From: a virus
Strand: one strand, 5' to 3'
DNA length: 41,311 nt
IMG/VR virus record: IMGVR_UViG_3300031746_000058
Coordinates: 1-41,311 of that record
In this document: piece after piece, positions 244 to 41,311 of the stretch
Numbering within the stretch: position 1 is the stretch's first letter
Layout: every line of letters begins with the position of its first letter
Notes under the pieces: generated by a model
The model's input: the letters and a program-made list of their open reading frames with translations, nothing else
Told to the model about the DNA's origin: nothing
The model's database searches: none
Position numbers and translations under genes: made by a program

Positions 244-549
244 TTACCGGGACACGTTTCGCTTCTGCCGCTCCAACTGCGCCTCGCGTGCGCGTGCGCG
301 CTCGGTATCCTTACTGGCGATCCGAGTCGCGGTGCGGACCAGATCAGCGTCCGACCTCGGCCCTCTGCCACCCTTGAGTTTGGGTAGCTGTACCTCTTTA
401 TGATGCAAGGATGCCATCAGCACGTCGGCAATGTACGCCGACAACGAGCGATTCGCGGCTGCGGCCCGCTCGATGAGCAGGAGCGCCGCCTTCGCAGGCA
501 GATTGGTAGCGATGCGGGAGAATCCCACCGTGCTCTTTACGTTTGCCAT
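244..549 (-). CDS. Ribbon-helix-helix (Arc/CopG-like) DNA-binding protein
   Basis: A 101-residue protein. The N-terminal half fits the ribbon-helix-helix pattern: a short basic strand (VGFSRIATNLP), a first helix (AKAALLLIERAAAANR) and a second helix beginning SLSAYIADVLM. The C-terminal half is very basic (KLKGGRGPRS, then Arg/Lys-rich to the end) and probably adds DNA contacts. The ATG at 549 is preceded by GGAGGG four bases upstream, which decides against the in-frame ATG 24 bases earlier. RHH proteins bind as dimers to short inverted repeats. A 15-bp inverted repeat (559-573) lies immediately upstream between this gene's start and its -10 box, so autoregulation and control of the divergent early promoter are likely. 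The fold is a family-level inference; the target is inferred from position. Confidence 0.72.
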   Translation of the reverse strand: MANVKSTVGFSRIATNLPAKAALLLIERAAAANRSLSAYIADVLMASLHHKEVQLPKLKGGRGPRSDADLVRTATRIASKDTERARAREAQLERQKRNVSR

Positions 550-3128: not shown

Positions 3129-3881
3129 GTGAGTGAAACCAAAGTGGTCCCGTGGAAAGAGAAGCTGCAGGAGAAGGTGAAGATGCAGCAGCAGCAGGAG
3201 AAGGCGCAGGGTGGACAATTCATTTCCATCAAGTCGGGCGTCATGTCGTATGGCGGTCTGCCGGTACAGGGCAACAAAGCAGACATGGTTGTGCTCGAAA
3301 GCATTTTCGAGAACAGTTTCTACCCCGACAAATACGGCACGACCGATAACACATCCCCCGCGTGTTATGCGTTCTCACCAACGGGGGGTGAGGACATGGC
3401 TCCGCACCCTGACGCGGAGCACCCGCAGAGCAAGACCTGCCGCGAGTGCCCGCAGAACAGGTACGGCAGCGCGGACGGCGGGCGTGGCAAGGGGAAGGCT
3501 TGCGCCAACCGCCGCCGGCTGGCGGTAATCTCGGCTGCGTCGGTGTCAAGCGCCGAGGAGATCAACAACGCGCCGACTGCGTACCTGCGGGTGCCGCCCA
3601 CCAGTACGCGCTACTGGTCGGCGTATGTGCAAAACGTGCTGGCCCGCACCGACATGCCGTTCTTCGCCAGCATCACGAATATCGGGGTGGTGCCCGATCC
3701 CAAGACCACCATGCGTTGCATCTTTACGCATGTCGCAGAAGTCAAGGACGACGAACTGTTGGAGGCGCTGTATCGCCGTGCTGCCGCCGAGGCGTCCCTG
3801 ATCGACTTTCCGTATCCGAAATCCGCGACCGGCGACGAGCCGGAAGCGCCCGCTGCCAAACCCAAGAAGGGGAAATTCTGA
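3129..3881 (+). CDS. Cys-motif phage protein, possible DNA-binding protein
   Basis: A 250-residue protein starting at GTG 3129, with AGGAGAAG just upstream. After a Lys/Gln-rich N-terminus (residues ~10-28), the core begins with SIKSGVMSYGG. The most distinctive segment, at about residues 95-125, reads KTCRECPQNRYGSA then GRGKGKACANRRR: three Cys (C-x2-C and one more) within a basic region, likely a small zinc site. Several phages encode proteins with this CxxCPxNxxGS...KACxNRRRL signature beside replication or recombination genes. The C-terminus is a Pro/Ala/Lys tail (KPKKGKF). The gene abuts the next (stop and ATG overlap). An ssDNA-binding or replication accessory role is plausible but unproven. 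Confidence 0.65.
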   Translation: MSETKVVPWKEKLQEKVKMQQQQEKAQGGQFISIKSGVMSYGGLPVQGNKADMVVLESIFENSFYPDKYGTTDNTSPACYAFSPTGGEDMAPHPDAEHPQSKTCRECPQNRYGSADGGRGKGKACANRRRLAVISAASVSSAEEINNAPTAYLRVPPTSTRYWSAYVQNVLARTDMPFFASITNIGVVPDPKTTMRCIFTHVAEVKDDELLEALYRRAAAEASLIDFPYPKSATGDEPEAPAAKPKKGKF

Positions 3882-6066: not shown

Positions 6067-6828
6067 ATGACAAAATACTCGGACTTTTTTGCAAACGAGT
6101 GGGCTAAGACGCGGCCACCTTGGCGTGTGTGGCTGTCGGCGTGGTCGTACTCGCGCCTAGTCAAGTACGAGGAGTGCCCCCGCTCCGTCTACTACCTGTA
6201 TGTCGAGAAACGCGGGATTGGAGAGAAGTCGGAGGCCATGCTGCGCGGCCTCGCCGCACATGAGGAGTGTGCAAGCATCTATTCGGGTGAACCGTTCAAG
6301 ATGAAAGACTCTGTGTTGTCGCAGGAGTGGCGGCTCAAGCTGGCCGCGCAGCGAGAGGACTGGCACCCCGACTTGGAAGCCGAGTTGCAGGTGGCGTACA
6401 ACGCATTGTGGCAACGCCGGAAGTGGTTCGACAAGGACGTGGCGTTCCGCTGCGCGTTCGACGGATTCGCCTATGCCTACGGCACTGACATAGCGATCTT
6501 CGAGCACAAGACGGGGAAGCCCTACCACTCCCACCGGGACCAAGCGGAACTGTACGCTTGCGTGGCGCACAAGATGCACCCGGAAGCTGACGGCGTGACG
6601 GTCAACATACAGTACCTCGACCTGCCTGTGTCCCGTGCCCCCACAGTCCATAGCTGGACTGCTGCCGAGTTGATAGTGGGCCACGAGGGCAAGCCGCTCA
6701 TCAACAAGTGGATTCAACGGGCGAATGTGATGCTGGCCGACCGGGACTTCCCCATGCGGGCTGGCCCCCAATGCCGGTATTGCCAATTTCGCGGCGAAGT
6801 GGGAGGCCCCTGTGCCATCTTCTCGTAA
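6067..6828 (+). CDS. PD-(D/E)XK nuclease, Cas4/RecB-like with Fe-S cysteines
   Basis: A 253-residue protein starting two bases after the polymerase stop. The N-terminal motif SYSRLVKYEECPRSVYYLY is the typical opening of the RecB/Cas4 nuclease family (PDDEXK_1). Active-site candidates are H65, D132 (FDGF), E146 and K148 (EHKTG) and Q159 (QAELYACVA). Four cysteines, C37 near the N-terminus and C236, C239, C249 near the C-terminus (CRYCQF...C), follow the AddB/Cas4 layout for a 4Fe-4S cluster. The expected activity is a 5'-end or ssDNA exonuclease for recombination, replication or DNA degradation. The family call is strong; the exact activity is inferred. There are no cas genes nearby, so a CRISPR role is unlikely. 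Confidence 0.88.
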   Translation: MTKYSDFFANEWAKTRPPWRVWLSAWSYSRLVKYEECPRSVYYLYVEKRGIGEKSEAMLRGLAAHEECASIYSGEPFKMKDSVLSQEWRLKLAAQREDWHPDLEAELQVAYNALWQRRKWFDKDVAFRCAFDGFAYAYGTDIAIFEHKTGKPYHSHRDQAELYACVAHKMHPEADGVTVNIQYLDLPVSRAPTVHSWTAAELIVGHEGKPLINKWIQRANVMLADRDFPMRAGPQCRYCQFRGEVGGPCAIFS

Positions 6829-8622: not shown

Positions 8623-8650
8623 TTGACAGCGGGCGGTGCGCCGCTAAGAT
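8623..8650 (+). promoter_or_regulatory. Internal sigma70-type promoter before the primase-helicase gene
   Basis: A consensus TTGACA (8623-8628), a 16-bp spacer and TAAGAT (8645-8650) in the only sizeable gap of the replication operon. A GAGGAATT ribosome site follows just before the ATG at 8701. Confidence 0.6.
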
Positions 8651-8700
8651 TGGCGTGTCGGTCCCGCTGTTCGATCCCCCCATTTATTCGAGGAATTCTA

Positions 8701-10731
8701 ATGTGGCAAGATTTCGCCGTAAGCGATCTGCGCCGGTCAGGCTTGGCCCTCACCGACATAGACGCAGAAGAAGCAAGGAACGCCATTGGTGTCATCGACG
8801 GGTACAAGATTCCTTACTACACGATCACCGGAGAACGACACCCTACGATGTGGCGCATCCGACTACGCGATGCGTACATGAAGTACTCGCAGCCGAAGGC
8901 CGAAGAACTCGGCGCAGATACCGCCCCACCATATTTTCATCGGCACTGCGACTACTCGAAGGTCGGGCTGACCAAGATCATTTGCGAGGGCGAGAAGAAG
9001 GCGCTCACAGGGTTCAAGTTTCTCTCGAACGTGCAGACCATCGGCATCGGCGGGTGTTGGAACTGGCAAGCGCCACTTTCCGACTCCGACATACGCCGCA
9101 AGGAGGAGTTTCCCGACCTGCCAATCATGGCGCGGCTGCATCCCGACATCATTGAGTTCTGCAAGAACGCGAAGGGGCCAATCAACTACGTCCCCGACGC
9201 GGACTATCGAACAAACGACCAAGTTTTGCGGGCGCTTGGCTCGATGCGCCTCGCGTTCCAAGCGGCGGGCCTGAAGCTGCGAATCATCCTGCTGCCGGAG
9301 GGGGGCAAGGGGCTGGATGATTTCCTCATGGCGCAGCCCCCGGGCACGCACGACTCCGCGTTCTGGGCGCTGGAACAGACTGACGGGAAGGGGATGCTCA
9401 CCCGCGTGTCTGACATGCAGGCAAAGATCGGACTGGTGCTGGACGGCAAAGGCAACCCATCGCTGGTCGAGGCTCTGTTGGTGGACGCGCTGGCCCGGTG
9501 GGAATACCTGTCGGAGAACTACTATTTCGACACCCGCGCCGTGCGCCACATGCTGAAGGGCGAGGATGGGGTGTTCCGCCCCATGAGCGACATACACATC
9601 GAGGCGTTGAAGCGGCACATGCAAGCAGCGTTGGGGTTCATAAGCATTCCCCGTGACAAGATGGAGTCGCTCATGTACGGGCTGGCGATGAAGTTCCCGC
9701 GCAACCCCCTCGCCGATCACTTGAACAGTCTGGTGTGGGACGGCGTATCGCGCTTCCCTACGCTCGTGGCGAAGCTAGGCGTGCCGGATGCCCTGCACGA
9801 CTACGCAACCGGCGTGTTGAGGAATCTGGTGGTGGCCGCGAGTGCCCGTGCGCTGAAGCCCGGGACCAAGTTCGACCATTGCGTGATCTTGGAGGGCCAT
9901 CAGGGGTTCGGCAAGAGCACGTTCTGGGAATTGCTCGCCACGTTGGACGACGTTTGTTACTACGCGGTGGCCTCGATCACGGCGAACAGCCACGTCATCG
10001 GCACCCGCGACTTCCTCACCGCCGGGAGCAAGGCGATCTTCTACGATCTGGACGAACTCGGTGTGCTCTCCAAGTCCGACGTGAACGCAGTCAAGACGAT
10101 GCTCTCGACCACGATGGACACCTACCGGCCCGCCTACGGGCGCTCGGATGTGGAGGTGCAGAGGGCGTTCCTGTGTGTTGGCTCCACGAACTCGGACTCA
10201 TACCTCATCGACCCCACAGGCAACCGGCGCTTCTGGCCGATCAAGGTGGGTGAAGGGACTAGGCACTTCGACAAGACGTGGCTCGTCATCAACCGGGAGC
10301 AGTTGTGGGCCGAGGCGATGGCGTCGCTTCACGCCGGTCACAAGTTCTGGGCGCTCACCGATGAGCAGGAGAAGCAAGCGACGCAGGAACAGGAGTCGCG
10401 TGTGGTGGAGGATGGGTTCGACGAGCCGGTGCGCGACATTCTCAACACCGCGTTCGCAACGAGCGTGGTGAACCGCCCGCTGACCCACACGCACAACGGC
10501 AACGACTACTACCTTTTTACCAACACACGCCTATACGACATGCTCAACGTACCGCTTGAGCGAAGGCAGGGGCACTCCCGTCGCATCGGCTTGGTGATAC
10601 GCCGTGTCGGTGATGGCCGGTGGATCAAGGCGAAGGTGCGGCAATTTGGCTGCACCACGAGTGCTTACCTGCTGCCCAAGGTGTGGGCCGACGAACAGCC
10701 GCGCATCGACATTGACTCGCCGAAGTATTAG
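8701..10731 (+). CDS. Primase-helicase: DUF3854 (Toprim-like) plus VirE-type P-loop ATPase
   Basis: A 676-residue protein. The N-terminal part has DUF3854/Toprim-like signatures: CEGEKKA (95-101), VPDAD at about 164-168 and KGLDDFL (203-209), as in phage primase domains. The C-terminal part matches the virulence-associated E (VirE, PF05272) ATPase family: HLNSLVWDG near 340, Walker A GHQGFGKST (399-407), a Walker B-like YDLDEL (448-453), STN at about 495 and the hallmark TGNRRFWP (506-513). Such fusions prime and unwind DNA at phage forks. It replaces a T7-type gp4 here and would act with the family A polymerase. The start is fixed by GAGGAATTCTAATG. Confidence 0.88.
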   Translation: MWQDFAVSDLRRSGLALTDIDAEEARNAIGVIDGYKIPYYTITGERHPTMWRIRLRDAYMKYSQPKAEELGADTAPPYFHRHCDYSKVGLTKIICEGEKKALTGFKFLSNVQTIGIGGCWNWQAPLSDSDIRRKEEFPDLPIMARLHPDIIEFCKNAKGPINYVPDADYRTNDQVLRALGSMRLAFQAAGLKLRIILLPEGGKGLDDFLMAQPPGTHDSAFWALEQTDGKGMLTRVSDMQAKIGLVLDGKGNPSLVEALLVDALARWEYLSENYYFDTRAVRHMLKGEDGVFRPMSDIHIEALKRHMQAALGFISIPRDKMESLMYGLAMKFPRNPLADHLNSLVWDGVSRFPTLVAKLGVPDALHDYATGVLRNLVVAASARALKPGTKFDHCVILEGHQGFGKSTFWELLATLDDVCYYAVASITANSHVIGTRDFLTAGSKAIFYDLDELGVLSKSDVNAVKTMLSTTMDTYRPAYGRSDVEVQRAFLCVGSTNSDSYLIDPTGNRRFWPIKVGEGTRHFDKTWLVINREQLWAEAMASLHAGHKFWALTDEQEKQATQEQESRVVEDGFDEPVRDILNTAFATSVVNRPLTHTHNGNDYYLFTNTRLYDMLNVPLERRQGHSRRIGLVIRRVGDGRWIKAKVRQFGCTTSAYLLPKVWADEQPRIDIDSPKY

Positions 10732-29453: not shown

Positions 29454-30437
29454 TTACGTGTTGTCCAGCCGACCTTGCAGGGACGAATTCGAGGTCGTCA
29501 AGTTACCGGCGAACGCGAGAATCTGCGTCACGGCGTCTTGATTGATCGAATACCGCTTGCCCGGGTCGAGCGCGACAAAGTTACGGTCACGGTGCGGACG
29601 GAAGAAGATGTACTTCGTGTTGAGGAAGTACGCCACCGTCGCGGGCATGTTGCCGCCCAAGCCGCCGTCCAGAACCACATCGGCGTCCATGAACTTGATG
29701 GACGGGAAACCGAGATTGCCGGTGTCGGGCGAATTGAAACGCTGGATCGCCTGAAGGGACTGCATGTAAAACGCCCACATCAGGTTGTCCATCACGATCA
29801 GGTCAGGCCGATTCTGGCCGCGAACCTGCTTGGCCCACAAACGGTTCATGTACGTCTGGATGTTCGATGCGCTGATCGCTGCACTGCCAGTCGTCGTGCC
29901 CTTGTAAAGCTGCGACGCCCAGAACGTCCACACGGCACGATCAATACCGCCGTAGGTGCCGGTAGCCGGGTTCGCCGGAACTGCGGCGAGCAGGCCGGTG
30001 AGTTCCTTGCCGCCGTAACCAGTGCCGTCAGCGTACAGACCCGCAGCAACAAGGTTCGCCATCGTGTCTTCGGCAACCGTCATGCGACCTTCGAGCAGGT
30101 CGATGATCTGCTCCTTGCCGGAGTTTTGCAGCATTTCCAGACCGGAGATCGTCACCGGGCAGGCCGCTTGCTTGATGTCGAACTGGGCGGCGCTGATAAC
30201 GTCTTGCGCTCCCACAGGCAGAGTCTCGTACCCGCTGTACCACCCGGCGTTCGCGTTCTGCGCGAAGCTGAGTTCCTGCATGATGACGTTACCGCCGGAG
30301 AACGGCTTGCTGTTTCCCCGTTGTTGCAGGCGGCGCAGGAGCGCGTTGTTCTTCGTTACGTTGTCCGCGATGATCCCGCTACGCGATTGGATCGTCGTAG
30401 CGATGATGTCGCTGACTTGAGAATTGGCAAAGGCCAT
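29454..30437 (-). CDS. Major capsid protein
   Basis: A 327-residue protein with AGGGGGC seven bases before ATG. The N-terminal region is helical and charged (SDIIATTIQSRSGIIADNVT, KNNALLRRLQQRGNSKPFSG). The body shows strand and loop segments (VISAAQFDIKQAACPVTISG; EQIIDLLEGRMTVAEDTMAN) and the C-terminal part includes KYIFFRPHRDRNFVALDPGK. The order scaffold-capsid-small head protein, the size, the helical N-arm and the leader hairpins upstream point to the HK97-fold major capsid protein. I cannot confirm the fold from sequence alone, but gene context makes the call firm. Confidence 0.85.
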   Translation of the reverse strand: MAFANSQVSDIIATTIQSRSGIIADNVTKNNALLRRLQQRGNSKPFSGGNVIMQELSFAQNANAGWYSGYETLPVGAQDVISAAQFDIKQAACPVTISGLEMLQNSGKEQIIDLLEGRMTVAEDTMANLVAAGLYADGTGYGGKELTGLLAAVPANPATGTYGGIDRAVWTFWASQLYKGTTTGSAAISASNIQTYMNRLWAKQVRGQNRPDLIVMDNLMWAFYMQSLQAIQRFNSPDTGNLGFPSIKFMDADVVLDGGLGGNMPATVAYFLNTKYIFFRPHRDRNFVALDPGKRYSINQDAVTQILAFAGNLTTSNSSLQGRLDNT

Positions 30438-31686: not shown

Positions 31687-32010
31687 TTAGTTTCCTATTC
31701 TTCGGTTGGAGCCACGTTGAACCGCCTTATCGGCGAATTCCCATAACCGCTCTCTCAACGCTTGGCGGTCTTTTGGGTCTTTTTGCGGAGCCTTGCGAAC
31801 CTCGTCCCCCTTCTCGAAGGGAACGACGTTGTGCTTTCGCATGTGCTCGTAGTAGGCGCGCTTCCCCTCGACCACGGTTCCGTCAAGGGGTGAAACAAAC
31901 GCTGGTATGTCTCCATGCACCACTGGGAAATCGGAACTCCCCTCATCAACATAGATCACCTCCACCATTTCTTTAAGCGCGGGGTCGTAGCGGAATCTTC
32001 TGCGGGACAT
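31687..32010 (-). CDS. Small conserved-type protein between portal and scaffold
   Basis: A 107-residue protein whose ATG overlaps the portal stop (TGATG). The N-terminus is basic (MSRRRFRYDPALKEMVEVIY). The middle has FPVVHGDIPAFVSPLDGTVV and EGKRAYYEHMRKHNVVPFEK, a pattern (D...F.SP.DG..I..R...YEHxR.H.V) recalled from small proteins next to portals in other podophages. The C-terminus is charged and helical. Function unknown. Confidence 0.65.
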   Translation of the reverse strand: MSRRRFRYDPALKEMVEVIYVDEGSSDFPVVHGDIPAFVSPLDGTVVEGKRAYYEHMRKHNVVPFEKGDEVRKAPQKDPKDRQALRERLWEFADKAVQRGSNRRIGN

Positions 32011-34454
32011 CAGTCGTCCTCCCCTTCCTTCTTCTCTTTGGCCGCGGACTCTTTCTGCTCCAACTCTGCGTCGGCGGCTTCCGCTTGTTGCTCCTGTCCG
32101 GCTTCGTGGGCTTGCGCCTGCTGCTCCATCGTCTGCGCGTGCTGCTGCGTCTTGATCTCACCGTCGATCTGCGCGGTCTGCACCTTCACGGCGGCGTCGG
32201 TCTGCGCGGCCTGCTGCTTCAGCGCGAATTCTTCCCGCATGAATTGCAGCTTGAGGTCGAACTCGCGCTCCTTGAATTGGAGGTCGAGCGCGTGCTCGCG
32301 CTCCTTGAACGCGAGGTCTTGCTGCTGCTCGCGCTCCTTCATCTGCATCTCGGCGGCGTCGGCGGCCTGCTTGGCCTGCTGATCCTGCTGCTTCATCGCC
32401 ATCTCGGCCTGCATCTTCTCGCCTTCCATCTTAGCCTTCACCATCGCCGGATCGGGCTTCTCGGGCGGCGGGCCTTGCTGCGCCATCTGCGAGATGGATT
32501 GTTCGATCACGCCTTCTATGTCGCGTCCGATCTTGTAGCCGCGCACTGACCAGAGCGTGACTTGCGCGATCATCGGAGCCAACTCCGGCATCTTCTCTAT
32601 GGCTGGCACTGCTTGTTGCATCAGGAACCCGAAGTTCTGCATGAACTCGTTACGCGCTTCCTTTTCTTCCTTGTCGTCCGCCTTGGTGATGGAGTCCACC
32701 GACACACTGATCTTGTGCTGAATCAGCTTGCCATCCTTGACGAGTTGCACCGCTGCCGGGACATACTGGAAGTCCGGTCCCGCCGGGTCTTGCAGATCAG
32801 CGTTGACGATCAGCGTCTCCGGCTGGAAGAAGTTCACCATGATTTGCGCGGCCTTGTTGATGAGGTCGCTGGCGAACCGCGCGATGTCTTTCTGGGTGTC
32901 GTTGATGCGTATGTTGGCGAACTTCTCCTTGATGGACTGCGCGGTGGCCGTCTCCGAGGCCACGCTCGCACCACGCACGATGTCCGCAATGCCAGTGATC
33001 TCGTAAACGTCCTGCTTCACCACACCGCGAGCGTTGATGAGCCGTTCGAGTACGTTCATCACCATTTCGACGGGGAAGAAATCGACCACGCCCTTCAACC
33101 CGCCGCGCTCCGCGAACATCGCCCAGTTGTCCACCGGGATCATCGTGTTATCGACGCCCTCCGTCAAAAGCCTCTGCACCGCATCTTGAGTCTTGTCGTA
33201 GACGCCGATAACTTTGAGGGCCTGCGTAAGCAGGGAAATGCGATTGGTAATCTGATCCAGTTCCGTCGCTTGATCCTGATACATGCAGTAGTCGGGAAGC
33301 GGGATCGTGGAGTCATTAGTAGTTGTTGCAAGAAGCGGCTTCGGACACGGAAAAAATTCGTCCAACTGAAACAGATCGTCCCGCTCGTCAAGGATTTCCG
33401 GGTGGTCTTCGCAAAGCCAATACACCTTGAGGTCATCTTTGCTCCAAATTTCCCAGATTGCAGCCTTCTTCAACACGCCGAGGCCGGGGCCGAACTCCTG
33501 ATTGCCGCCGCTGCCCGCGTTGCTCGCCTTCTGCGTGGAAGCCGCTTCCGCGTAATTGAGCGGCACGTTATTGAACGCTTCCCCGAACCGCTTGACGCCG
33601 CTTGCGCGGGTCATAAACACGCGCCGCGCCACCCACGTACATTCCTCCCATGTCCGTGACGGCGACATACGGAAGTCCTTCCAATGCACGTAGTCGAAGC
33701 ACACCTTCTCGCCGGAGATGACGCCGGATTCGTAGCTGTCGTCCGTCACCGCCTTGTTCTGCAACTCCTTGGGCTGCGGCGGCGTGCGCGGCGGCTGCGG
33801 CGTGGGCGTCGGTTGCCCGAGCATCGGCAGCGGCCCCGGCGGCAGCGCCGTGGTGCCGGGAGGCAGGGGAGCCGGGGATGCGCCGGGCATGGCCGCGCCG
33901 GTCCCCCCTCCGGCTTGCACGGAAGTTGGTGGTACGGGTGTTTCCGGTGCCCCCGGCAAAGGATCGGGGCGGTTCTCGTACATGGGCGTGAGGTCGGCAA
34001 CATACCGAACCCACGCCGTGCCGCGTCCGGGGATCAGTCGGTCCTCGACGCAGGCGTTCATCGTGGCGTCGAATTGCGAGTGTTCGCAGACTGTGAACTC
34101 CAAGTTGCGCTCCAGAATGGCGGCGGCAACCCGGTTTACTTGATTGGTGGTGTCGAAACGGCGGCTAACCTCCGGCTTCGGGGGCTTGGCGTAGACCGCA
34201 GGCTTCAACGTCTGGACGTTCGACCAGAGTATGTTGAACTTCCGGTCCTGATCGTCGATGGAATCGCGCTCGTCACGGTATCGCTTGACGGTTTTCTCGG
34301 CCCGCTTGACGAAACTAGCCTCGCTGCGCTTGGCCGAGTCAAGTTCCGCCTTCCATCGCTTTGCCTGACCCTCTTTGCCTTCGCCAAAATCGGAAACTTG
34401 ATCAACAGACGCGCCTGCGCCGGAGGGCGACTCACTATTTGCTTGCGGATTCAT
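32010..34454 (-). CDS. Portal protein, P22-like
   Basis: An 814-residue protein. It starts with ATGA overlap after the upstream gene. The N-terminal ~130 residues contain KRAEKTVKRYRDERDSIDDQ, RKFNILWSNVQTLKPAVYAK and KPPKPEVSRRF, which match the P22-type portal family (PF16510). A Pro/Gly-rich insert lies at about residues 165-225. The central stem and wing regions follow. The last ~170 residues form a long Gln/Glu/Ala coiled coil with repeated REREFDLKLQF-like units, the barrel tip found on some podophage portals. It forms the dodecameric ring for DNA packaging and ejection. Length is near that of P22 gp1. Confidence 0.9.
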   Translation of the reverse strand: MNPQANSESPSGAGASVDQVSDFGEGKEGQAKRWKAELDSAKRSEASFVKRAEKTVKRYRDERDSIDDQDRKFNILWSNVQTLKPAVYAKPPKPEVSRRFDTTNQVNRVAAAILERNLEFTVCEHSQFDATMNACVEDRLIPGRGTAWVRYVADLTPMYENRPDPLPGAPETPVPPTSVQAGGGTGAAMPGASPAPLPPGTTALPPGPLPMLGQPTPTPQPPRTPPQPKELQNKAVTDDSYESGVISGEKVCFDYVHWKDFRMSPSRTWEECTWVARRVFMTRASGVKRFGEAFNNVPLNYAEAASTQKASNAGSGGNQEFGPGLGVLKKAAIWEIWSKDDLKVYWLCEDHPEILDERDDLFQLDEFFPCPKPLLATTTNDSTIPLPDYCMYQDQATELDQITNRISLLTQALKVIGVYDKTQDAVQRLLTEGVDNTMIPVDNWAMFAERGGLKGVVDFFPVEMVMNVLERLINARGVVKQDVYEITGIADIVRGASVASETATAQSIKEKFANIRINDTQKDIARFASDLINKAAQIMVNFFQPETLIVNADLQDPAGPDFQYVPAAVQLVKDGKLIQHKISVSVDSITKADDKEEKEARNEFMQNFGFLMQQAVPAIEKMPELAPMIAQVTLWSVRGYKIGRDIEGVIEQSISQMAQQGPPPEKPDPAMVKAKMEGEKMQAEMAMKQQDQQAKQAADAAEMQMKEREQQQDLAFKEREHALDLQFKEREFDLKLQFMREEFALKQQAAQTDAAVKVQTAQIDGEIKTQQHAQTMEQQAQAHEAGQEQQAEAADAELEQKESAAKEKKEGEDD

Positions 34455-35668: not shown

Positions 35669-35916
35669 CGGGATGCTCCCATCGGGGAGGAGGAACCGGC
35701 ACCGGAGAGGAGCGCGAACAGGATGTCGTTGCGCCGTTTCCGGTTGCCCTGCATGACGGCCAGCTTGTGCTCGGCGGCGGTCTTGTTGAAGGGGCGCTTC
35801 TCGGACGGGTTCAAGGTCAGGGGGGTACGCACTTCATCCCCGAGCAGCTTGGCGAGCGCGGCGGCGCGGGTGGCGGCGCGGGACTTGTTCGAGTCGTGCG
35901 AGCGTGTGTTGCTCAT
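35665..35916 (-). CDS. Small basic hypothetical protein
   Basis: An 83-residue protein. The ATG at 35916 overlaps the TerL stop (ATGA), and its TGA overlaps the next ATG. It is rich in Arg, Lys, Ala and Asn (RAATRAAALAKLLGDEVRTP; KLAVMQGNRKRRNDILFAL), likely a single helical domain. It may be a packaging accessory or a virion minor protein. Coupling on both sides supports a real gene. Confidence 0.6.
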   Translation of the reverse strand: MSNTRSHDSNKSRAATRAAALAKLLGDEVRTPLTLNPSEKRPFNKTAAEHKLAVMQGNRKRRNDILFALLSGAGSSSPMGASR

Positions 35917-37271
35917 ATCCGGTTGCTCCATCGGCCCACGGGCCGCTTCACCGTGTCCCAGAGTTTCTCAAGCTGGATGCCATCGCTGATTTTAGGCTTC
36001 GGTTGCAGGCGTGGTGGAACATACACCGGCGTAGCCCCGAAGTCTTCCTGATACCCGAGCGCCCCGATGCGGAGCGCGTCCGCGTAGTCCGAACACCAAT
36101 CATGCCGGGGCTTGCTGCGGAACGTTTGTTTGGATTCGTCGTACTCGTACTGGTACTGGCGCATCGCTTCCAACGCCCGGGCGCAGCGTGTCTTGTCGAA
36201 GCGAGCGGTCCGCAGCATGAGCCGAGTGGCCTGAATCCCGTCCTGCACCGACAGGGACGGAACGGCACGAGCGCGTATGCCGCGAGCAAGCAACTGCTCC
36301 ACCGTGGAGCGGCCCGTCTGGAAAGTGTCGGCCCACGCATCGCGGGGCAGGTAGTGATACCCCGGCTTGAAGCCATACTGGAGCTTCCGGTCCTCCACTA
36401 GAGAGGCTACGTCGTGGACATCGTGTCCGCGCACGGCGAGGCAGTCGGTGAAGTGGGGGACTTTGGCGATGATCTGAAAGAACCACACCACACAGAAGTC
36501 GGAAAAACCGATGTCCCAGCAAGTGTGTGTCGGTATGTCGGGCGCGTAGTCCACGGCGGCGATCTGGGTGGGGTGTTCAGGCGTGTCCACCTCCATCGCC
36601 TTCACCGCCTTACCGTAAATGGACCCCTTGATGGCCGCGCCGAAGTCGTTCTCGAACTCCTGCGCGTAGGTGTCCTCGTCCATGACCAGCCGGGCGTCGT
36701 CCAACTCCTGCTGGGGCAGTATGTTGGACTCGCTGGCCTTCAAGTCCATGAAGTACCACCCGGTGGGGCCACCGTAGGACTTGCGGGCGATCTCGTACAT
36801 CTCCCAGAACTCATTCTTGCCGGCGGCGGTGCCGATCCAGACCGCCCACCCGATGCGGTCGGCGAGCGCGGGGCGGATCACCTCGGTGAAAACGGATTGG
36901 CGCATGGATGCAGGCTCGTCCACCACGATCCCGTCCCAGTACTGGCCGCGCAGGTTGTCGGCGTTGTCCGCGCCGTGGAGCGTGATGCGGGAGCCGTTGA
37001 CGAGCATGACACTGAGTTCGGCGATGGAGGCGCTGCGGCGGAAGCCTTCGCTGTAACGGAGGAGGTAATCCCACGCGATCCGCTTCGCTTGTTCCCTGAA
37101 GGGGGCGAGGTAAGCGTACCGCGCATGTTCCTTCTGCGTGTGGAGGGCGCGGCCAATCAACTCGTTGACGGCGGCGACGGTCTTGCCGGCGCGGCGGTGA
37201 CATACGAGGAGTGCCCAACGCTCCTCCCGGGCGTGGAACGCCTGAAATTGGGCGCGGGGGACGTACTGCAC
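35913..37271 (-). CDS. Terminase large subunit
   Basis: A 452-residue protein starting at GTG 37271. The ATPase domain has Walker A HRRAGKT (25-31), Walker B GIVVDE (114-119) and a coupling segment WIGTAAG (145-151). The nuclease domain has D in CWDIGFSD (~254) and the C-terminal DYADALR (~408-414) typical of TerL RNase H-fold nucleases. It translocates DNA into the procapsid with ATP and cuts concatemers. The P-loop form HRRAGKT and the short overall length suit podophage TerLs. The small subunit candidate lies just upstream. Confidence 0.92.
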   Translation of the reverse strand: MQYVPRAQFQAFHAREERWALLVCHRRAGKTVAAVNELIGRALHTQKEHARYAYLAPFREQAKRIAWDYLLRYSEGFRRSASIAELSVMLVNGSRITLHGADNADNLRGQYWDGIVVDEPASMRQSVFTEVIRPALADRIGWAVWIGTAAGKNEFWEMYEIARKSYGGPTGWYFMDLKASESNILPQQELDDARLVMDEDTYAQEFENDFGAAIKGSIYGKAVKAMEVDTPEHPTQIAAVDYAPDIPTHTCWDIGFSDFCVVWFFQIIAKVPHFTDCLAVRGHDVHDVASLVEDRKLQYGFKPGYHYLPRDAWADTFQTGRSTVEQLLARGIRARAVPSLSVQDGIQATRLMLRTARFDKTRCARALEAMRQYQYEYDESKQTFRSKPRHDWCSDYADALRIGALGYQEDFGATPVYVPPRLQPKPKISDGIQLEKLWDTVKRPVGRWSNRI

Positions 37272-37282
37272 AATATTGTGCC

Positions 37283-37576
37283 TTAGTTCACGGTCTGCAC
37301 CGCAGTACCCGGTGCCATGTGGGCGGGTGTCTCATCCAGCTTGGAGCGCGGGATGGCGGAAATCACCGTGTACTCGCGCTCATGGGTGGGAACCTCGACG
37401 CCCAACTTGGCGATCATCACCATCGCGGCGATGTAGTCGCGGGGGGCCGTGCGGCGCAGCGTTTCGAGCATGGCTACCACCTCACCCGTCTGGGACAGGG
37501 ATTGGTGCGCCGCTTGGTTAAGGAGCGAAATTACTCCGTTAGCGAGCGCGGCTGGGGTAGCGGGAGCGCGGGGCAT
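37283..37576 (-). CDS. Terminase small subunit candidate
   Basis: A 97-residue protein, first gene of the late operon and 11 bp before TerL. It is largely helical (LANGVISLLNQAAHQSLSQT; GEVVAMLETLRRTAPRDYIA), with a Pro-containing tail. No helix-turn-helix can be assigned firmly. The assignment rests on the position before TerL, the small size and helical content. The nearest AGGAG is about 18 bases before the ATG, so initiation may be weak or need leader structure. An alternative is an unrelated small protein. Confidence 0.5.
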   Translation of the reverse strand: MPRAPATPAALANGVISLLNQAAHQSLSQTGEVVAMLETLRRTAPRDYIAAMVMIAKLGVEVPTHEREYTVISAIPRSKLDETPAHMAPGTAVQTVN

Positions 37577-37692
37577 GGCGGGAAGGATAACACTCCTGAC
37601 TTTGCGTGTGTGGGGGGAGGTGTGCGGCGCGAGGGGAGGGGGGCTTCGGGGTCGCCCGGGGGTGGGTGCGCCCGCGACGCCCGCCCGCGCCG

Positions 37693-37836
37693 CGCCCGCC
37701 TACGCGCACATACGCCCGTCCGCCCGCCTACGCGCACATACGCCCGTCCGCACGCGACGCGCGACGCACGCACGCATACGCGCGACGCACGCAAGCAGGC
37801 ACGCACATGCAGGCACGCACATGCAGGCACGCACAT
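37693..37836. repeat. Tandem repeat array between late and accessory operons
   Basis: Two 28-bp units (37693-37720, 37721-37748) contain CGCGCACATACG. They are followed by CGCGACGCACG-type runs and three 14-bp units GCAGGCACGCACAT (37795-37808, 37809-37822, 37823-37836), the last leading into ACATACG. The units resemble those of the end array (ACATACG within CGC runs). The region has no plausible gene. It lies directly before the first late gene. Confidence 0.85.
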
Positions 37837-37927
37837 ACGCACGACGCACGCACGCACGCAAGACGTTAGTAAGCACTCACAAACCCCGGCTCGATTTCCG
37901 GCCCTGCAACATGCGCCTGTGTGTCGT

Positions 37928-38000
37928 AAGCTACCCTCGCCGCCCGGGGCCGCTGATCGGCCCGCCACGGCCCGATTATGGCCCCTAGCGTGTGTTCCAG
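37928..38000. repeat. Diverged direct repeat, left copy
   Basis: AAGCTACCC[T/A]CGCCGCCC followed exactly 52 bases from its start by GGCCCCTAGCG and then TGTTC. The right copy is at 41120-41192 with the same 52-base spacing. The middle is more diverged. The two copies flank the non-coding control region and the MoxR/VWA-like module. Confidence 0.65.
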
Positions 38001-38074
38001 AGGGGGCCGCTGGGCCGCTCCGGCCAATAGGGGCCTGTTCCGGTTGTTCCGGTTGTTCCAGTTGAAACTGCCAC

Positions 38075-38103
38075 CTTATATCTCCCCTGTAGCGTTATGT
38101 TAC
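38075..38103 (-). promoter_or_regulatory. Leftward promoter candidate for the late operon
   Basis: Read leftward: -35 GTAACA (38098-38103), a 17-bp spacer and -10 TATAAG (38075-38080). It lies in the AT-rich core, about 500 bp before the first late gene. The three tandem iterons lie just downstream and could act as an operator. Confidence 0.4.
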
Positions 38104-38234
38104 GTAACGTTTTTTGACCCTTTTAATATAGAATTTAACTGGAACATATGGAACGCAGCGCTAAACCCTTGACGCCGAAGGCGTAACCTTGCGCTGGATT
38201 GGCGTTACACCGGAGCGCAACAAAAAGACCATTT

Positions 38235-38280
38235 TTGGCATTATGCCAATGTCATACAAATACCCGACTGTTTTAGTCGG
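38235..38280. other. Two short hairpins in the control region
   Basis: TTGGCATTATGCCAA (38235-38249) is a perfect stem of six with a 3-base loop. CCGACT/AGTCGG (38264-38280) has a 5-base loop. Neither has a T-run. They lie between the two iteron groups, so they could be part of an origin or of a leader RNA. Confidence 0.45.
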
Positions 38281-38517
38281 ACAATAACGGTCGAAACGCG
38301 GAAATTTGGCCCTTGTTCCAGATAATGTTCCGGTTGTTCCAGATAGCGCTCTCCCATCTGGAACACCATTAAGTGCCCTAAAACGTCACTTTTTAAGGCC
38401 CTTATGTCGCCATCCCCCGACACTCGAAAACCGCAACCCCTTGATCTATCACTATGGCCCATAACTTGCTAGATACGCAGTCCCCCGGGGCATGTCCCCA
38501 CAACTGGAGCAACACAC

Positions 38518-40101
38518 ATGAACGTAGCGCAATCCGCTTCCCTTATCGGCCTGATCCCCTTCCGCGTCCTGCTGAGCATTGCCCGTGCCCTCGGTGGCGT
38601 TGGCGCTGATCCCCATCGCCTCGCGGGTGGCAAGTCAGGCCTCGCCGACGCCCTCGTGAAGCGTTACGGGGCCGATGCCATACTCGCCAAGTGGCAGGAA
38701 GAGCAGTCAACCCCGCCGCAGCACGGCACCCCTGCCCCCCATCACGACGCGCCGGAAGGCGACGACAGCGCCACGCCACCCGAAGGCAGCGACACCGAAG
38801 GCAGCACACAAGGCGACGCCACCCCGGGCGACGCGCAAGGCGACGCACCCACCCCCACGCAACAGAATGGAACCGCGACGCCCACCCCCGCACAAGGTGA
38901 CGCCGGCAACGGTGACGCCGGCAACGGTGACGCACCCGAAGGCGACGCACCCGAGCAGGCCCCGAAGGCACCCGAGGCAGGCGACGCGCCACCCCCACCC
39001 CCCGAGCGCGAGTCCCCGATGGACGCCGCGATACGCGCCATTGCCAGCGAGGAAGCCTATCGTGCTCTGTACCCACATGCGCTATGGGCCGAGCAAATGG
39101 TCGCCTACGCCAACCGCCACGCCGCCGGCCCCCACGGCACCCCCACCCCCGAAGGCGACGCGCCACGCTCCCCGAGCGGCCCCCCGCCGGCCCCGTACTA
39201 CGCTCCCCCGCGCAAAGGCGACGCGGTACAGCATCGGCTGGCCCCTAAGCTGCTGGCCCTGCTGGCCGCTGGAGCGCAGCCGCTACTGGTCGGCCCCGCC
39301 GGCACCGGGAAGTCCCACGCGGCCCGGGCCGCAGCGCAAACCCTCGGATATGCCTACGGTGACCAGTCCCTTTCCGCCGGAGTGAGTGAGTCCGCCCTTA
39401 TGGGCTGGCTGTTGCCGCGCACCGACGGCCCCGGGTTTGCGTACATGCCTAGCCCATTCGTCCGCCTGTACGAAGCCGGCCATAGCCTGTTCCTGCTGGA
39501 TGAGATGGACGCCGCCAGCCCCGATATGCTCGTGATAGCCAACGCGGCCCTGTCCAATGGCGGATTCACCGTGCCGCAGCGCCAAGAGGCACCGTATGTT
39601 GCCCGTGGCCAGAACGCCCTTATCATGGGAGCCTGTAACACGATCAACGGAGCGGATGAGCAGTATAGCGCCCGCGTCCAGATTGACGCCGCAACCGCCA
39701 ACCGCTTCTATACGCTGATCTGGCCGCATGACCCGCGCCTAGAGCGCGCCCTTGCCGGCCTCCCCGCGAAGCAGCGCTATTGGAAGCCTGAAGGCATCAC
39801 CGCATGGACGCCTGAGCAGTGGCACAACGCCACAGAAAGCGCTATTGCATGGGTCGATACGGTACGCGCCACGATCAACGCCAACGCGCTGCAGCGTGTG
39901 TTTTCCATGCGTCAAGTACGCATGTATCAGCAAGCGCTTTCCGCCGGGTGTACGCACAAGGAAATCCGCGAGGATTTGCTGATGGCATGGGCACCCGATG
40001 AAATCGCCAAGCTGCCCCCCACAGCGCAGCCGAAGAACGCGCCGCAAGCTGGCAACGAAGCCCCCACCCCCACCCCCACCCCGACACCCGAGGCGCAATA
40101 A
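38518..40101 (+). CDS. MoxR/CobS-type AAA+ ATPase with low-complexity linker
   Basis: A 527-residue protein starting at ATG 38518, with CTGGAGC upstream. Residues 1-60 form a helical N-terminal domain. Residues ~62-165 are a disordered Gly/Asp/Ala/Pro linker with many GDA repeats. The AAA+ module has Walker A GPAGTGKS (259-266), Walker B LFLLDEMD (324-331), a sensor-type Asn in GACNTING (~374) and Arg in ANRF (396). The DEMD box and the ESALMGW segment are typical of the MoxR/CobS (AAA_5) group. A Pro/Thr tail ends the protein. Such ATPases remodel partners that often have VWA domains; the next gene is a VWA-like protein coupled by TAATG. Role in the phage is unknown. Confidence 0.88.
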   Translation: MNVAQSASLIGLIPFRVLLSIARALGGVGADPHRLAGGKSGLADALVKRYGADAILAKWQEEQSTPPQHGTPAPHHDAPEGDDSATPPEGSDTEGSTQGDATPGDAQGDAPTPTQQNGTATPTPAQGDAGNGDAGNGDAPEGDAPEQAPKAPEAGDAPPPPPERESPMDAAIRAIASEEAYRALYPHALWAEQMVAYANRHAAGPHGTPTPEGDAPRSPSGPPPAPYYAPPRKGDAVQHRLAPKLLALLAAGAQPLLVGPAGTGKSHAARAAAQTLGYAYGDQSLSAGVSESALMGWLLPRTDGPGFAYMPSPFVRLYEAGHSLFLLDEMDAASPDMLVIANAALSNGGFTVPQRQEAPYVARGQNALIMGACNTINGADEQYSARVQIDAATANRFYTLIWPHDPRLERALAGLPAKQRYWKPEGITAWTPEQWHNATESAIAWVDTVRATINANALQRVFSMRQVRMYQQALSAGCTHKEIREDLLMAWAPDEIAKLPPTAQPKNAPQAGNEAPTPTPTPTPEAQ

Positions 40102-41000
40102 TGGCAACCCGCTACTTTTTCACCCGCTCCCGCGACGCCGGCCGCGCCACGCATGTTCACGTTTTCGATAGCGTGGCGGATATGGTCGCCCAATCGAACA
40201 CTCCCGCCCACGCCGCGCAAGACCCCGGCAACGTGCGCCGCATCATGTCCCGCGCCAGTGGCGACGATTGGACGTACGGCGCACTGAAGGATGGCGCGAC
40301 ATACGACCATGCCATGCTCACCGGCTGGCGCGACGCGCTGCCCCGTATTGAGGCACTCGCGGCCCGCGTCGCGCCCAACGTGGCCACGCCGCTGGACGTG
40401 CGCCGCAAGCTGCGACGCGGCCCCGAGGGTGATGAACTGGACATACATGCCGTCAACGCCGGCAACCTGCCCCGGGCTTGGTCGGCCCGCCGCCGGTCGC
40501 TGGCCCGTGCGCCGGCCCCTATCCGCATCCTGTGCAATGTGATCTATAACTGCGCTAGCGATGGAGAGGACTTTTTCTGGCGTGGCGCGGTAGCGCTGGC
40601 ACTGGTTCGCGCACTGCGCCGGAAGGGGTACCGTACCGCGATCTCCGGCATTGGTTTACTCGTGTCCCCGTACTCGGCCCGGGGCCGGAAATCCGCACTT
40701 GATTATGTCGCCCGTTTCGACGCGCTACGCTATGGCGAGGCAATTGACACGGCGCGACTCGCCGCCGTTCTATGCTCCCCGGCAATGCTGCGTCACACCA
40801 TCTTTCGCACGGTACTTACTACGCCGGCCCAAGTGTCAAGCGGCTTCGGCTACGCTCCCCGCGATGAGCAAACGACAGCCTGTATCGTCGCCAGTGGCGC
40901 ATGGCCCCAGACTGTCGAGGAGCGGCTTGTGATACCGGACCTTCGCAACCAAACCGCCGCTGGCGAATGGCTAGCCCGCATGTCGGCCCGTTTCGCCTGA
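40101..41000 (+). CDS. VWA-like (DUF7192-like) partner of the MoxR ATPase
   Basis: A 299-residue protein whose ATG shares a base with the preceding TAA. The N-terminal ~100 residues have DDWTYGALKDGATYDHAMLT and GWRDALPRIEALAARV, resembling phage proteins of the DUF7192 type. From about residue 140 a VWA-like fold is suggested: IRILCNVIYNCASDGEDFFW, then RGAVALALVRALRRKGYRTA, that is a first strand, a degenerate metal site (no DxSxS), a helix beginning RG and a second strand. A second strand-helix pair follows. MoxR plus VWA protein pairs are classical chaperone systems. Function in the phage is not known; recall of the family name is from memory and unverified. Confidence 0.68.
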   Translation: MATRYFFTRSRDAGRATHVHVFDSVADMVAQSNTPAHAAQDPGNVRRIMSRASGDDWTYGALKDGATYDHAMLTGWRDALPRIEALAARVAPNVATPLDVRRKLRRGPEGDELDIHAVNAGNLPRAWSARRRSLARAPAPIRILCNVIYNCASDGEDFFWRGAVALALVRALRRKGYRTAISGIGLLVSPYSARGRKSALDYVARFDALRYGEAIDTARLAAVLCSPAMLRHTIFRTVLTTPAQVSSGFGYAPRDEQTTACIVASGAWPQTVEERLVIPDLRNQTAAGEWLARMSARFA

Positions 41001-41055
41001 ACCGGAAGGGTAGGGTAAAGACCGCCCGCCTACGCTACTCGCACACATGAGAGGC

Positions 41056-41089
41056 ACGGGCCACCCCGTCAAGGTGGCCCGTTTGTTTT
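41056..41089 (+). terminator. Strong intrinsic terminator after the MoxR/VWA-like module
   Basis: A perfect 10-bp stem, ACGGGCCACC (41056-41065) with GGTGGCCCGT (41073-41082), a 7-base loop and TTTGTTTT after it. It lies 56 bp after the stop codon. Confidence 0.92.
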
Positions 41090-41192
41090 AAGGCCCTTAG
41101 AGCCTCCGGGCGTATGTCCAAGCTACCCACGCCGCCCTCGACACTCGAAAACCCGCCATACGCCGTTTTAAGGCCCCTAGCGCATGTTCTAG
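41086..41192. repeat. Right copies of control-region repeats
   Basis: TTTTAAGGCCCTTA (41086-41099) is identical to 38391-38404. CGACACTCGAAAACC (41139-41153) is identical to 38418-38432. A second TTTTAAGGCCC starts at 41166. AAGCTACCC...GGCCCCTAGCG...TGTTC (41120-41192) matches 37928-38000. The stretch is non-coding and lies directly after the terminator. Confidence 0.75.
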
Positions 41193-41255
41193 CGGCCTGT
41201 CCTGCCCCCCGTTTTCCGCCCTCCCCCCGTTTTGCCGGCAAAGCGCCCGAGCCCG

Positions 41256-41311
41256 AGCCCGAGCCCGCGCACATACGCGCCACGCGCCACGCGCCACGCG
41301 CACCCGCGCCA
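41256..41311. repeat. GC-rich tandem repeat array at right end
   Basis: A short GAGCCC triplet-like run, then CGCGCACATACGCGCCA and CGCGCCACGCGCACCCGC units of the same type as 1-190, in register across the ends. Between 41193 and 41255 I see only CG-rich sequence with no gene. Confidence 0.88.

Follow-up and report, generated by a model that had tools for sequence, protein, structure and literature searches.

The virus record analysed here, a single stretch of 41,311 bases that we call the window, carries between positions 37994 and 38364 a dense cluster of nonamers for which the original prediction had offered two roles, an origin of replication or a master operator. Which of these roles the cluster serves is the question that the locus raises. 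Here we approach it through the layout and statistics of the site, through the arrays of related phages, and through unrelated loci that encode the same type of replication protein.

A nonamer array sits where late and early genes diverge

The array occupies the sole point at which the late and early modules of the genome diverge. Leftward late genes run from about 37.5 kb down to 11 kb; the first identified member of this block is the terminase large subunit gene (35913-37271, minus strand), and the block also encodes the portal (32010-34454) and the major capsid protein (29454-30437). Rightward early and replication genes occupy 38518-41000 and 0.67-11 kb, beginning with a gene for an AAA_5/CobS-like ATPase (38518-40101, plus strand) that has no relative among the viral contigs searched. 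The module at 0.67-11 kb encodes DNA polymerase A, an SNF2 helicase, nucleases, and a VapE-family helicase with an N-terminal DUF3854 region (8623-10731, plus strand; the start may be 8701).

Alternating repeats of the CGCGCACATACG type, which form long, Z-DNA-like purine-pyrimidine runs of 17-21 bp, lie at 1-190, at 37690-37870 (beside terminase) and at 41266-41311. Because both contig ends bear these repeats, we infer that the genome is probably circular or terminally redundant, the break in the record falling within a CGCGCACATACG repeat. The distance from the array to the VapE gene is 27 kb on the contig and would shrink to about 11.7 kb with the ends joined. A blastn search of 37000-41311 against phages gave no match, and no close relative spans the junction, L002 and L003 both stopping before it.

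The hexamer TGTTCC occurs nine times in 372 bp, with starts at 37993, 38036, 38045, 38054, 38314, 38326 and 38335 on the plus strand and at 38141 and 38360 on the minus strand. Ten exact copies of GTTCC[AG]G[AT]T are present in the window, eight of them within 38037-38364 (328 bp), as against a shuffle mean of 1.38 and maximum of 5 for GTTCCRGWT across all 41 kb. The genome-wide count proposed in the original prediction thus comes out far above chance, and the mixed-orientation cluster it described within some 370 bp holds up.

The copies fall into blocks. An outlying copy with one mismatch, GTTCCAGAG (37994-38002, plus strand), is followed by block A, GTTCCGGTT-GTTCCGGTT-GTTCCAGTT (38037-38063, plus strand), which is the predicted run of three nonamers in exact 9-bp tandem. 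Block B, GTTCCATAT-GTTCCAGTT (38137-38154, minus strand), comprises two nonamers in 9-bp phase (38137/38146), the variant GTTCCATAT at 38146-38154 completing the pair. In block C (38315-38344, plus strand), GTTCCAGAT precedes GTTCCGGTT-GTTCCAGAT at spacings of 12 and 9 bp, giving a further phased pair at 38327/38336, and the block faces a single inverted nonamer, GTTCCAGAT (38356-38364, minus strand). A weak, degenerate copy, TGCTCCAGTT (38502-38511, minus strand), stands just before the early gene start.

It is scarcely credible that this arrangement is an artefact of chance or composition, or that it is left over from tandem repeats in coding sequence. Most tandem GTTCC words of other viral contigs are coding repeats, and a scan of the collection for the tandem nonamer returned more than 120 matches, almost all of this kind, so the abundance of tandem nonamers carries no evidential weight. 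The words of the window, however, are intergenic, lie on both strands, and form separate blocks with mixed spacing. Within the junction (37901-38517), one 6-mer recurs nine times and one 8-mer six times, against maxima of 6 and 3 over 2000 shuffles; as none of these shuffles attains the observed repeat count, chance is excluded. The collection scan also yielded one clear intergenic match, in L203, an unrelated viral contig of 65.7 kb, where three CCGGAACAA and three TTGTTCCGG words are mirrored about a core of roughly 100 bp (3250-3480), so that the same nonamer recurs in an origin-like site beside a gene that by eye encodes a D5-like helicase.

The array flanks the most AT-rich stretch of the window

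Blocks A and B enclose the AT maximum of the window, a core at 38064-38136 that could serve as an unwinding element. Of all 60-mers in the window, the one starting here at 38095 is the richest in AT, with a fraction of 0.72, compared with 0.62 for the next best. Within the core lies the palindromic TGTTACGTAACG (38098-38109), whose inner palindrome, GTTACGTAAC (38099-38108), contains a TACGTA that occurs nowhere else in the window; the arrays of the VapE relatives L069, L079 and L080 also include TTACGTA. Both the AT-rich patch and the 10-bp palindrome of the original prediction are therefore present. Its further statement that no other intergenic region is alike holds when restricted to iterons of mixed orientation about an AT core and fails for repeats in general, since the window has other repeat clusters, namely the CGCGCACATACG repeats and repeats in coding sequence.

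Other elements ascribed to the patch fared less well. The terminator-like hairpin (38261-38283, minus strand) is a single find where 1.0 is expected and so is not above chance, and searches with Rfam and for tRNAs likewise returned nothing above chance. GC skew, suggested as a check, follows the direction of transcription and is for that reason uninformative about an origin. The leftward promoter candidate found no backing either, a search of the region for sigma-70-type promoters giving zero hits.

This last result bears on the alternative that the nonamers are a master operator, through which a regulator encoded by phage or host would switch the two divergent promoters, early and late. The array falls precisely in the junction that must hold these promoters, and short tandem sites in both orientations would suit ribbon-helix-helix (RHH) or other cooperative repressors, as in omega and MetJ; an RHH-like small protein is moreover encoded at 244-549 (minus strand). 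Against the operator, besides the missing sigma-70-like promoter, stands the distribution of the nonamers, which are found neither at the RHH-like gene's own promoter (549-669) nor at other gene starts. The protein resembles RHH factors by eye and has no Pfam domain at E-values up to 0.1. Lacking both a nonamer at its own promoter and a Pfam domain, it is a poor candidate, and we rejected it as the main binder. An RHH operator fits the array worse than an origin does, and a master operator of any kind is improbable, although it could coexist with an origin.

The presence of arrays goes with primase-helicase genes rather than with terminase

The terminase of the window belongs to a family common to Pelagibacter podophages and Rhodoferax phage P26218, at about 40% identity. 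Relatives of the pelagiphage type have no array upstream of terminase; many other terminase relatives have a strong one, with a word that differs by lineage. Those that encode VapE (G011, G023, G024, G027 and G028, with G020 further out) carry arrays in the same divergent region, and the comparison with related phages called for by the original prediction finds related words at the junction in four of them: TGTTAC in G024, G027 and G028, and TGTTGC in G011. In these four genomes, as in the window, the words form 9-bp phased pairs. At least two phased 9-bp TGTTNC pairs are present in five of seven VapE genomes, whereas the ten relatives that lack a strong VapE of the window's type have one such pair at most; a Fisher value for this comparison is descriptive, because the TGTTNC word was defined after seeing the data. 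Of 13 such pairs, 11 sit in junction arrays.

Details of the layout recur as well. G024 shows the same order, two phased words on one strand and then three on the other, alignment of G027 with G028 shows the whole region kept, including TTACGTAC in the core, and in L073 a triple-tandem block, GTAACAaaaGTAACAaatGTAACA, adjoins an AT-rich stretch as in the window. The main words of G023 are different (GTCTTCAA and CATTACACTT), and G020 has looser sites. The VapE relative L069 bears GTCTTCAA and CATTACACTT repeats in place of TGTTNC words at about 6120-6380, and has CATTACGTAACG in common with the core of the window. The VapE of the window is only about 25% identical to that of the TGTTAC and TGTTGC relatives, and the shared TGTTNC word could therefore be a product of convergence.

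Where the primase-helicase of a terminase relative is of another type (G012, G021, P26218 and ctfPj964), arrays lie between its gene and terminase and are built from other words: GTAGGATA in L045/L046, GGGGGTACC in L063, TGCTACAA in P26218 and GTACTCAC in ctfPj964. GGCACC repeats upstream of TerL in L047/L048 proved to be coding repeats and were set aside. Elsewhere in phage ctfPj964 (L147, about 1300-1600), seventeen ATCTGTCC words cluster within 300 bp beside a ParB-like gene, possibly as a partition site.

These comparisons also bear on whether the repeats form a packaging site (pac or cosB) bound by a small terminase subunit. In lambda cosB, short repeats lie near the terminase genes, and in the window 0.7-1.1 kb separate the array from the gene for the large terminase subunit, with a small leftward ORF (37283-37576, minus strand) beside the array. 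That ORF, however, matches no family; in G020 a 2.4-kb gene parts the array from terminase; pelagiphage relatives with the same terminase have no arrays; and arrays of the same kind occur at VapE loci, for instance on a plasmid. Since arrays follow the primase-helicase gene and not the terminase, a packaging site is very unlikely.

Repeat clusters adjoin VapE genes at unrelated loci

We surveyed unrelated VapE loci in viral contigs, bacterial genomes and plasmids, and ranked repeat clusters in 13 lineages. In most of them no other short-repeat cluster of the locus is as strong as the one that begins at the VapE stop codon and brackets an AT-rich stretch. The region 3' of VapE ranks in the top 2% of locus windows in eight of the 13 lineages and in the top 7% in two more. 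The word is again particular to the lineage: GGTCACCCC in PS3, GAGCGACC in L101, AGCAATA in L102, GTCCACACC in L103/L273, TACACCCC in L104, TGAGAGGGG in L095/L272, GGTGGATA in L100, and GTTGCCG in L276 and its kin. A weaker yet visible cluster is present in L094 and L277, and none is found at this position in L274, L275 or VarioGold.

The most compact case is pGO128 (NC_003374.1, L271), a 4.3-kb Gluconobacter plasmid in which VapE is the only replication-type gene, and in which GTGCTRA repeats at 2669-2960 flank an AT-rich core directly after that gene. The exception to this placement is formed by the window and its VapE-bearing terminase relatives, where the array is at the junction instead; 3' of the VapE gene of the window, the best 7-mer count is 2. 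A master operator leaves unexplained both why arrays track VapE and primase-helicase genes and why they lie 3' of VapE on prophages and a plasmid. Between the two roles first proposed, the relatives and the VapE loci thus speak for an origin, and nothing positive was found for an operator.

The candidate initiator and a possible firing mechanism

Taken together, these results make it probable that 37994-38364 is a replication origin, composed of iterons around an AT-rich unwinding element and fired by the VapE of the window. This protein, the VirE-type protein of the original prediction, matches the VapE family (E=1.4e-54) and DUF3854, and over its helicase region PDB entry 7pds ('Similar to D. 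nodosus vapE'; E=3.3e-22). Its modelled C-terminus has the helix and strand order of a winged helix (pLDDT 70), and the top fold matches of this part, which are weak (TM about 0.33), include the plasmid initiators RepA_N and RepE. The full-length model is poor (pLDDT 55), and the C-terminal profile found nothing among PDB sequences. VapE is the likely binder of the nonamers.

A plausible sequence of events would run as follows. The nonamers TGTTCC[AG]G[TA]T would act as iterons, grouped on either strand into blocks of 9-bp phase that surround the unwinding element. The VapE primase-helicase would bind them, probably via its C-terminal winged-helix-like domain, assemble as hexamers on the iteron blocks, melt the core at 38064-38136, and then load itself, after which the phage DNA polymerase A would extend primers. 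Origin and initiator gene being apart, the initiator would reach the junction as a trans-acting factor.

Discussion

Whether this layout is general is an evenly balanced matter: iterons flanking an AT core, together with a self-loading VapE-type helicase, may be general to VapE phages and plasmids, the podophage lineage of the window having separated the two, with the initiator acting in trans and the word drifting. If so, a layout described as unique to phage satellites would be common equipment of VapE-encoding phages and plasmids. Origins are unknown for most environmental phages, and the arrays suggest a search rule, namely lineage-specific short repeats around an AT core, either immediately 3' of the VapE gene or where early and late genes diverge. 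By this rule, origins are predicted for many VapE phages, and the evolution of initiator specificity can be tested directly.

Among known systems, lambda-type origins likewise have iterons adjoining an AT-rich stretch and a phage-encoded initiator. Their iterons, however, are inside the O gene, whereas the array of the window lies between genes, and the window yielded no O-like gene. Elsewhere, L149 and L199 have O-like genes with internal GGAACAAAC repeats, and GGAACAAACC repeats lie inside the lambda-O-like replication gene at about 8900 in L149 and about 5240 in L199.

Among the terminase relatives, G011, G024, G027 and G028 resemble the window in carrying TGTTNC words with 9-bp phasing at the corresponding place of the divergent region, beside an AT-rich neighbour, and in having a VapE gene downstream in the rightward module; they differ in using TGTTAC or TGTTGC for TGTTCC and in the low identity of their VapE. 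Plasmid pGO128 and the VapE prophage and phage loci PS3, L101, L103, L104 and L276 also combine a VapE gene with iterons that flank an AT-rich core. Unlike those of the window, these iterons begin at the VapE stop codon, and their words (GTGCTAA, GGTCACCCC, GAGCGACC, GTCCACACC, TACACCCC and GTTGCCG) are different.

A comparable architecture is reported in satellites. The initiator helicases SaPI Rep and Cch2 of SCCmec are reported to bind, through a C-terminal domain, iterons 3' of their own genes (PMC7581432), PICI origins are described as iterons in two groups that flank an AT-rich region (PMC6092414), and in pbunaviruses a SaPI-type self-loading helicase has been named the likely initiator (PMC12390725). 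Like a SaPI/PICI origin, the site has short iterons, particular to the lineage, in two sets that flank an AT-rich region. SaPI/PICI initiators are VapE/D5-like helicases, often fused to or paired with a primase, and the candidate initiator of the window, like Rep or Pri-Rep, is a primase-associated helicase of hexameric type whose helicase region is related to 7pds. Unlike SaPIs and PICIs, the phage itself encodes a terminase, a portal and a major capsid protein, on which account we rejected a phage-inducible chromosomal island, and its array is at the early/late divergent junction and not directly 3' of the initiator gene. The latter placement was tested for and is not found here, and we therefore do not class the locus as a PICI replicon. 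The site is best read as an origin of SaPI/PICI layout in a phage that encodes its own capsid: the satellite layout is kept, and origin and initiator gene lie far apart.
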